64,000 nt of DNA, taken from the NCBI RefSeq assembly GCF_001651805.1, contig NZ_CP015839.1, positions 124,001 to 188,000 on the forward strand. The letters run 5' to 3'. The position numbers and the translations under genes are program-made. Position 1 is the stretch's first letter. Each line of letters opens with the position of its first letter. This DNA is from Marinobacterium aestuarii. Lineage in GTDB: Bacteria; Pseudomonadota; Gammaproteobacteria; Pseudomonadales; Balneatricaceae. The notes under the pieces are model-generated. The model was not told where the DNA came from, ran no database searches, and was given only the letters and a program-made list of their open reading frames with translations. Positions 57,061-58,170 of the stretch are shown one piece after another.

Positions 57061-57411
57061 GTGCCATTCTGGTTTGAACTGATTGTCTCGTTGCTGCTGC
57101 TCGGTGGCGGCACCTTTATACTGCTGGGTTCGCTGGGGCTGGTGCGCATGCCGGACTTCTATACGCGCATGCACGCACCCACCAAGGCTACGACCCTGGG
57201 GATGTGGGGACTGCTGATCGGTGCCTTGCTGCTGTCATCCTGGAACAGCGGCGTGCTGAGCATGAATCAGCTGCTGATTGCCGTATTCCTGCTGCTGACC
57301 ACGCCGGTCAGTACCCATATGCTGGCCAAAAGTGCGCTGCATCACCGTCTGGAATGGGAGGAGAATACCCAGGGTCAGGAGCATGCGAAGCGCTTTATGG
57401 ATGATCACTGA
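57061..57411 (+). CDS. mrpG: Mrp antiporter subunit G
   Basis: A 116-residue membrane subunit with three helices. GTFILLGSLGLVRMPDFYTRMHAPTKATTLGMWGLLIG is the MrpG signature. It starts with GTG at 57061 preceded by AAGGAGG. It ends the operon; a short CACCCGGGGGTG stem follows. Confidence 0.95.
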   Translation: MPFWFELIVSLLLLGGGTFILLGSLGLVRMPDFYTRMHAPTKATTLGMWGLLIGALLLSSWNSGVLSMNQLLIAVFLLLTTPVSTHMLAKSALHHRLEWEENTQGQEHAKRFMDDH

Positions 57412-57483
57412 GCAGTCGTTCACCCGGGGGTGTGGTGTTTTGATATTTATCGCAAAACCCATGAAATTTATGGAAATATAGCG

Positions 57484-57512
57484 TTGACAAGACGGCCGCC
57501 AAAGAGAATAAT
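57484..57512 (+). promoter_or_regulatory. Sigma-70 promoter of tRNA-Phe
   Basis: A perfect -35 TTGACA (57484-57489), 17 bases, and a -10 AATAAT (57507-57512), 16 bases ahead of the tRNA. Confidence 0.85.
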
Positions 57513-57528
57513 ACGCGCCTCTTGAGTT

Positions 57529-57604
57529 GCCCGGATAGCTCAGTCGGTAGAGCAGAGGATTGAAAATCCTCGTGTCGGTGGTTCGATTCCGCCTCCGGGC
57601 ACCA
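57529..57604 (+). tRNA. pheT-like tRNA: tRNA-Phe (GAA)
   Basis: A 76-base tRNA with acceptor arms GCCCGGA / TCCGGGC, D-arm GCTC...GAGC, anticodon arm GAGGA-TTGAAAA-TCCTC (anticodon GAA), T arm GGTGG-TTCGATT-CCGCC and an encoded CCA end. The 3' part is duplicated downstream. Confidence 0.98.
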
Positions 57605-57616
57605 AGTAATACCTGG

Positions 57617-57647
57617 AAGCCTCGCTAGTCAATAGTGGGGCTTTTTT
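57617..57647 (+). terminator. tRNA-Phe terminator, unit 1
   Basis: An 11 bp stem with two G-U pairs (AAGCCTCGCTA / TAGTGGGGCTT), loop GTCAA and a T6 run, 13 bases after the CCA end. Confidence 0.85.
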
Positions 57648-57803
57648 GTGTCTGGACGTTCAGTGGGTGAGGCTCCATCGAACCGAGGTTCGATTATTAG
57701 CCACATCCCTGTGGCTAACCCTTCGGGTCATCGTCGCTGCGCTCCGATATGTCAAATTGCTCCTGGCAATTTGGTCCGCCTCCGGGCACCAAGTAATGCT
57801 TAG

Positions 57804-57833
57804 AAGCCTCGCTAGTCATAGTGGGGCTTTTTT
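57804..57833 (+). terminator. tRNA-Phe-type terminator, unit 2
   Basis: The same stem with loop GTCA and a T6 run, after the second tRNA 3' end. Confidence 0.8.
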
Positions 57834-58002
57834 GTGTCTGATCGTTCAGTGGGTGAGGCTCCATCGAACCGAGGTTCGATGACTCGTATCGTCCCTGATA
57901 CTCGCCCTGCGGGTCATCGTCGCTGCGCTCCGATATGTCAAATTGCTCCTGGCAATTTGGTCCGCCTCCGGGCACCAAGTGCTATCCAGGTAACGCTGAT
58001 GG

Positions 58003-58033
58003 AAGCCTCGCTAGTCAATAGTGGGGCTTTTTT
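58003..58033 (+). terminator. tRNA-Phe-type terminator, unit 3
   Basis: The same stem with loop GTCAA and a T6 run, after the third tRNA 3' end, separated by 26 bases of unit-specific sequence. Confidence 0.8.
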
Positions 58034-58085
58034 GTGTCTGATCGTTTTTAAGAGGTTAAAAGCAGGCGCAAGGGTCAAGGGGCGG

Positions 58086-58170
58086 AGCTGTCAGCCGTAA
58101 GCCGTAAGCCGTAAGCTTATAGCTGTCAGCTTACAGCCAAAAAGCAGGTTCAAGGTTCAAGGTGAAAGCA
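58086..58170. repeat. Heptamer-repeat region, copy 5 (GCCGTAA x3, GGTTCAA x2)
   Basis: Three GCCGTAA units at 58094-58114 are followed by CTTATAGCTGTCAGCTTACAGCC, then two GGTTCAA units at 58147-58160. The same words occur in reverse order near 21540-21640. Confidence 0.75.

Follow-up and report, generated by a model that had tools for sequence, protein, structure and literature searches.

Two 144-nt units lie behind a tRNA-Phe gene of Marinobacterium aestuarii, each of which reads, from its letters, as a degenerate copy of that tRNA opened in the T-loop (..GGTTCGAT / an 80-nt hairpin module / TCCGCCTCCGGGCACCA). On balance we think it probable that the array consists of two tRNA-linked repeats of the TLR/RtT kind, working via read-through RNAs. 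The odds of this explanation and of its rivals overlap, and a role as DNA could be compatible with either.

Layout of the array and make-up of a unit

The stretch of DNA analysed, here called the window, comprises 64,000 nucleotides (positions 124001-188000 of the 5.19 Mb source genome, which is one contig). The parts of the array follow one another in the order promoter, tRNA-Phe, T1, unit 1, T2, unit 2, T3, with the following window coordinates.

57484..57512, + strand: sigma70-like promoter of tRNA-Phe (11/12 matches)
57529..57604, + strand: tRNA-Phe (GAA)
57615..57647, + strand: terminator T1
57648..57791, + strand: unit 1, a tRNA-linked repeat: tRNA-Phe copy split in the T-loop, beginning with GTGTCTGGA and ending in CCA
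57676..57694, + strand: palindrome CATCGAACCGAGGTTCGAT of unit 1, its right part GGTTCGAT at 57687-57694
57695..57774, + strand: 80-nt hairpin module of unit 1, with the covarying TCCC hairpin at 57697-57718
57775..57791, + strand: tRNA-Phe 3' end copy 1, closing unit 1 (17 nt exact)
57802..57833, + strand: terminator T2
57834..57977, + strand: unit 2, likewise a tRNA-Phe copy split in the T-loop
57881..57960, + strand: 80-nt hairpin module of unit 2, with the variant TCCC hairpin at 57886-57901
57961..57977, + strand: tRNA-Phe 3' end copy 2, closing unit 2 (17 nt exact)
58001..58033, + strand: terminator T3, last part of the array

Between 57300 and 58250 the + strand carries only one sigma70-like site, upstream of tRNA-Phe, and three terminator-like sites (57615, 57802 and 58001) against a mean of 0.8 in 50 shuffles. 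A sequence-only reading of this region had placed the 17 bases TCCGCCTCCGGGCACCA at 57588 (within tRNA-Phe), 57775 and 57961, each followed by a terminator, and had described the replacement of the hairpin arms TAGCCACA/TGTGGCTA by GTATCG/TGATAC around TCCC; both were present as claimed, the two hairpins at 57698-57717 and 57886-57901. Its account of the spacer as a unit-specific part followed by about 50 identical bases was right about the latter and imprecise about the former, since GTGTCTG..GGTTCGAT before the variable part is also nearly identical (units 1 and 2 share 91% identity over 163 nt). Directly 3' of the array, window positions 58058-58162 hold short repeats (AGCTGTCAGCCGTAAGCCGTAAGC..., and AAAAGCAGG..CAAGG twice).

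The 3' end and the terminator are common to tRNA-Phe and both units. Each unit starts with GTGTCTGGA directly past the T-run of the preceding terminator, and its right end, TCCGCCTCCGGGCACCA, corresponds to the right half of the T-loop, the acceptor strand and CCA. On the left of the module, GGTTCGAT of unit 1 is letter for letter the 5' part of the T-loop in tRNA-Phe, and in a unit of the related genome G001 the left half is CGGTGGTTCGAT, again as in the tRNA; the D-arm likeness of GTTCAGTGGGTGAGGC was judged by eye only. The split was scored in 51 tRNA-Phe units, all distinct (at most 3 mismatches in the end copy, spacer of 60-330 nt, same-spacer repeats and full tRNAs dropped). The T-loop 8-mer of the tRNA was exact in 25 of the 51 and matched in at least 7 of 8 positions in 36, in 33 of which it lay 64-81 nt upstream of the end copy. 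The T-loop half was not seen in the other 15, among them the first unit of the second array of the source genome and all three units of locus L105.

Comparison with known tRNA-linked repeats

The first description of TLRs dates from 1978 and came from E. coli, where they number 22 at ten loci (PMC8144298); RtT is known in Pasteurellaceae (PMC4986893). They sit in tRNA or rRNA operons, one to five per locus, and the last 18-19 bp of a unit are identical to the 3' terminus of the RNA gene immediately before it (PMC8144298). A transcribed and processed RNA has been demonstrated for rrA, rrB and rrF; according to PMC8144298, RrA, RrB and RrF are the only TLRs with a known function, and the starvation phenotype of rtT was later attributed elsewhere. 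The two units of the window lie directly 3' of tRNA-Phe and agree with this description, 17 tRNA bases matching exactly in each copy (18 if one mismatch is allowed), which is one or two bases below the stated TLR length.

The Rfam model of RtT (RF00391) gave no match in 57400-58150 up to E 5, and its 45-bit cut-off was not reached there, while the control on E. coli returned four matches of 133-138 bits; in the whole source genome there was one weak match (E 0.006). The T-loop split, a trait of RtT which we derived from tyrT and proK, is found in the array. The module is inverted with respect to RtT and the GGATGAGAAC-type motif is absent from the window units; a form of this motif is present in the Phe array of locus L112.

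The claim that the array resembles tyrT/rtT was borne out by comparison with the tyrT and proK units of E. coli, which have the same T-loop split, with a related module in the tyrT-tyrV spacer. The split site, read by eye, gives GGTTCGA / module / ATCCTTCCCCCACCACCA in the tyrT/tyrV spacers and tRNA, T1, ..AGGTTCGA / module / ATCCTCTATCACCGACCA, T2 at proK. When the tyrT-tyrV module was reverse-complemented and aligned with the Phe module of genome G020, 35 of 38 columns were identical with one gap, the alignment beginning exactly at the T-loop junction, and its score of 59 was not approached by the best shuffle (29; 0/500 as high). Against the window module the score was 25, reached by 1 of 500 shuffles, and across seven Phe modules 0 or 1 of 500 shuffles scored as high. 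The rtT module behind tyrV showed weak likeness to the family modules (2 to 101 of 500 shuffles as high).

The Phe model R1 scored 15.9 bits against the array of the window itself when this was read in reverse, and thus only stronger matches count when it is applied to units of other kinds. On 19 such loci it gave 9 matches in 8 loci (best E 4e-9), 8 of them opposite to the tRNA strand and the ninth, in L168 (27.8 bits), on the tRNA strand; 11 of the 19 loci, E. coli tyrT included, gave no match, and E. coli proK scored 15.1 bits, below that threshold. Elsewhere, there are units whose module lies in the opposite orientation, and several other tRNAs have units of their own. The proK unit, annotated as RtT sRNA, resembles the array in its order (tRNA, T1, unit with tRNA end, T2) and in its split (GGTTCGA / module / ATCC), whereas it follows tRNA-Pro, is single, has the module in the opposite orientation, carries the GGATGAGAACC motif and scores 100 bits with Rfam RtT. 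The tyrT/tyrV repeats (RtT, RF00391) share with the array the end copy, the tandem units, the T-loop split and the related tyrT-tyrV spacer module; in contrast, no terminator was seen by eye between the units and the module is inverted. Among 72,556 plasmid records 22 contain the tyrT stretch, with no annotated features under the matches. The array belongs to the same broad kind, tRNA-linked repeats, and the suggestion that it is an independent version is therefore not supported.

In the class, RF00391 matched 81 of 369 genomes at E <=0.01, 23 of them over the cut-off. Among 30 stretches (the best match per genome) 27 contain a tRNA and 23 a copy of their own tRNA end (<=4 mismatches), the tRNA being that for Gln, Ser or Tyr. 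Most of the Tyr cases are flanked by tRNA-Tyr and tRNA-Gly of the same cluster, and units inside this cluster, seen in several other Gammaproteobacteria, are therefore probably transcribed. A DNA pattern for the start of the module, present in 30 of 369 class genomes, was discarded because its matches were mostly an unrelated GCTTCGTCGC.. repeat or due to chance; among the 30 loci fetched with it, the T-loop junction was recognised by eye in L150, L165, L167, L168, L171 and L174. Genomes G433 and G446 carry a repeat GCTTCGTCGCTNCGCTCCTCGC.. with 17 and 13 matches to this pattern, and no tRNA was present in the two stretches of it inspected (L147 and L172).

Conservation of units and hairpins in relatives

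Units 3' of tRNA-Phe were present in 7 of the 7 genus genomes searched and also in other genera. R1 matched 43 of 116 family genomes (E <=0.01), spread over 10 of 16 genera and including all 7 of the genus, with 73 of the 116 giving no match under stricter filters; the weak matches may be other hairpins. At the 23 loci fetched outside the genus, tRNA-Phe was recognised at 15, tRNA-Pro at 2 and no tRNA at 6, though tRNA-Phe-like ends were seen at L113 and L116. A DNA search tally of 56/57 genomes was dropped as evidence for units, most of the matches listed being the tRNA alone, and the 20 phage records listed of 90 likewise match just the tRNA part of the query.

Counting units in sister genomes, as the sequence-only reading had proposed, gave none to four per tRNA-Phe locus examined. 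Unit type also varies among close relatives, with types alternating in L105 and L109, and decayed units occur in the relatives G004 and G006. An assembly artefact is unlikely, as the source genome is a single contig and has a second tRNA-Phe with repeats of the same kind, and as relatives carry units in varying number. Of 59 end copies 25 are exact, and where the tRNA end is unusual the copy is closer to its own tRNA in 19 of 21 cases, a figure biased towards this outcome since copies were located by their own tRNA end.

In the source genome a block of about 3 kb (L008:1337-4600, G000:C1:5006836-5010099) with several genes, by eye a LysR-like regulator and others, breaks up the second tRNA-Phe array, and part of a unit follows beyond it; the G001 and G003 arrays lead into sequence similar to this block. 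We consider it unlikely that the units are the footprint of site-specific recombination, in which an integrase crossing over in the T-loop would displace tRNA ends and the units would be small trans-mobilised cassettes. The start of the 17-nt end block at the T-loop, modules in both orientations at one point, the alternating unit types and the interruption of the second array by a gene block would suit such an origin. However, the units share a terminator and a spacer, as duplication predicts, and the far side of the block yielded no tRNA end (<=2 mismatches).

Pairing of the hairpins was examined in two alignments. A1 comprised 13 units of six genus genomes (omitting G003a_4, G001b_2, G001b_3, G001b_4, the G004 unit and short units), and A2 comprised 17 of 19 units of other genera. 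On the structure that we specified, 90.5% of the A1 cells pair against 86.6% in shuffles, and 11 pairs show two-sided change against 4.4 (0/500 as high in both cases). The TCCC hairpin accounts for 7 pairs changed on both sides out of its 9, and its covariation is genuine across the genus; the closing stem GTGTCTGG/CCGGGCAC had no two-sided changes in A1. GTNTCTGG-like sequence also occurs 3' of terminators at tRNA-Phe loci with no detected unit. RNAalifold, unprompted, recovered from A1 the closing stem, the T-loop hairpin, the TCCC hairpin, the CCC/GGG pairing and the last hairpin, but missed the ATCG..CGAT hairpin. In A2, 19 cells were doubly changed against 6.8 in shuffles (0/500 as high) and 6 pairs were doubly changed (29/500 as high), and RNAalifold unaided gave two of the hairpins together with a competing fold involving the tRNA end. 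The minimum free energy of terminator plus unit body lay below that of shuffles (z -5.0 and -3.3), the unit alone giving weaker values (z -3.4 and -1.2). The spacer stems of relatives thus keep their pairing, with covariation beyond shuffles in the genus and in other genera.

Selection on RNA or DNA structure, which the sequence-only reading had put forward, may underlie this covariation, but there is no wobble strand bias and the pattern has other possible causes. Outside the closing stem 8 GU cells stood against 8 AC cells, and the counts therefore do not favour RNA over DNA. Palindrome-correcting mutation or the insertion of ready-made hairpins could produce the same pattern of covariation. 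The palindromes without strand bias and the three consecutive terminators would also agree with a DNA or transcription device, in which stacked terminators and cruciform hairpins block read-through into downstream genes. This we regard as improbable, as it leaves the tRNA end copies unexplained, and likewise the copies inside tRNA clusters, where transcription must continue.

Hairpins that look like the module occur elsewhere in the source genome (an observation with no shuffle control). Dispersed hairpin repeats with ATCCCT loops and GCCC..GGGC and AAATCGGCT..CCGATTT stems were observed at L210, L211 and L212, in stretches of 0.8-1 kb from which a tRNA gene is absent; their make-up resembles that of the unit module.

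Proposed read-through RNAs, and copies at other tRNAs

We picture the array as growing by tandem duplication, its units being kept alike through gene conversion with the tRNA. In a minority of cases transcription would run past T1 (and T2) and give unit RNAs, and the copied tRNA 3' end would serve as a processing signal that trims the read-through RNA to a defined CCA end, the products being low-abundance, growth-coupled structured RNAs. Rare read-through of T1 with trimming at the copied tRNA end is likely by analogy with RrB, a detected RNA with the same end-copy hallmark, which is encoded between T1 and T2 and arises by read-through; PMC8144298 cites 87% termination at T1, and its authors propose the end copy as an RNase E signal. 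RrA, RrB and RrF, the TLRs of E. coli rRNA operons, resemble the array in that an RNA gene between T1 and T2 carries an end copy of the RNA gene before it; theirs is made by read-through (PMC8144298), as that of the array would be. They differ in being linked to 5S rRNA and in their reported interaction with Hfq and CsrA (PMC8144298).

Copies of tRNA ends are present at other tRNAs of the same genomes. In the source genome (84 entries in 37 stretches, one tRNA entered twice) 17 tRNA entries are followed by a copy of their own end (<=4 mismatches), at loci for Phe (2), fMet (3), Ile (3), Asp (1), Arg(ACG) (1) and elongator Met (1), a match at tRNA-Arg(TCT) being likely due to chance. In G001, where the scan covered 65 entries out of 81 tRNA matches, the same tRNA kinds have copies. 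By eye, the tRNA-Ile copies are nearly whole degenerate tRNAs, those of Asp and fMet keep the T-arm intact, the Met copy has a weaker likeness to the T-loop split, and the tRNA-Arg copy of G001 is split in the T-loop, with apparent inserts in the D-, anticodon and T-loops. A general closing helix formed by an inverted copy of the tRNA end was rejected after a mixed swap test, in which a unit's own pairing was best in 14 of 48 units (units behind doubled tRNAs were counted repeatedly, wobble was allowed and the 13-nt window cuts the Phe stem); we retain it merely as a lead, and only for some of the units behind tRNA-Gln, Tyr and Met.

Such copies, including the nearly whole tRNA-Ile copies and the G001 tRNA-Arg unit, would be expected if the units were neutral debris, that is, tandem tRNA duplications past the terminator that decay and gain palindromic loop inserts while their end is kept by recombination with the live tRNA. 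This neutral reading, in which decay is combined with gene conversion, is a strong rival and explains much: the copies follow the local tRNA end, unit number and type differ among close relatives, hairpins of similar motifs lie elsewhere in the genome, and there is no GU/AC strand bias. We give it a substantial chance, short of an even one; against it stand the covariation above that of shuffles and the recurrence of one split point, with related modules, across many families and at several tRNAs.

It is conceivable, if doubtful, that the TLR/RtT units of Gammaproteobacteria form one family. Its members would be tRNA copies opened at a fixed T-loop site by an exchangeable hairpin module of either orientation, in other words a small element targeting tRNA T-loops, which would serve repeatedly, behind the tRNAs for Tyr, Pro, Gln, Ser, Arg, Phe and perhaps Met, to make tRNA-tailed structured RNAs. 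The T-loop split itself provides a rule for what many TLRs are, ties the E. coli units to those behind other tRNAs across the class, and offers sites that can be tested, namely the T1 read-through and the copied CCA end. As far as the literature was searched (the best matches of longer lists, with subscription journals mostly outside), no tRNA-Phe-linked units, inverted module or T-loop rule were found; TLRs in E. coli and RtT in Pasteurellaceae were already known, and these three points appear to be new.

Further degenerate copies were observed in the source genome. At three loci (L085, L087 and L092), judged from gene order to be rRNA spacers, degenerate tRNA-Ile copies lie between tRNA-Ile and tRNA-Ala. 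At L067, L068 and L069, 3 of 4 tRNA-fMet genes have behind them units that combine a degenerate tRNA-fMet 3' part with a terminator-like hairpin.
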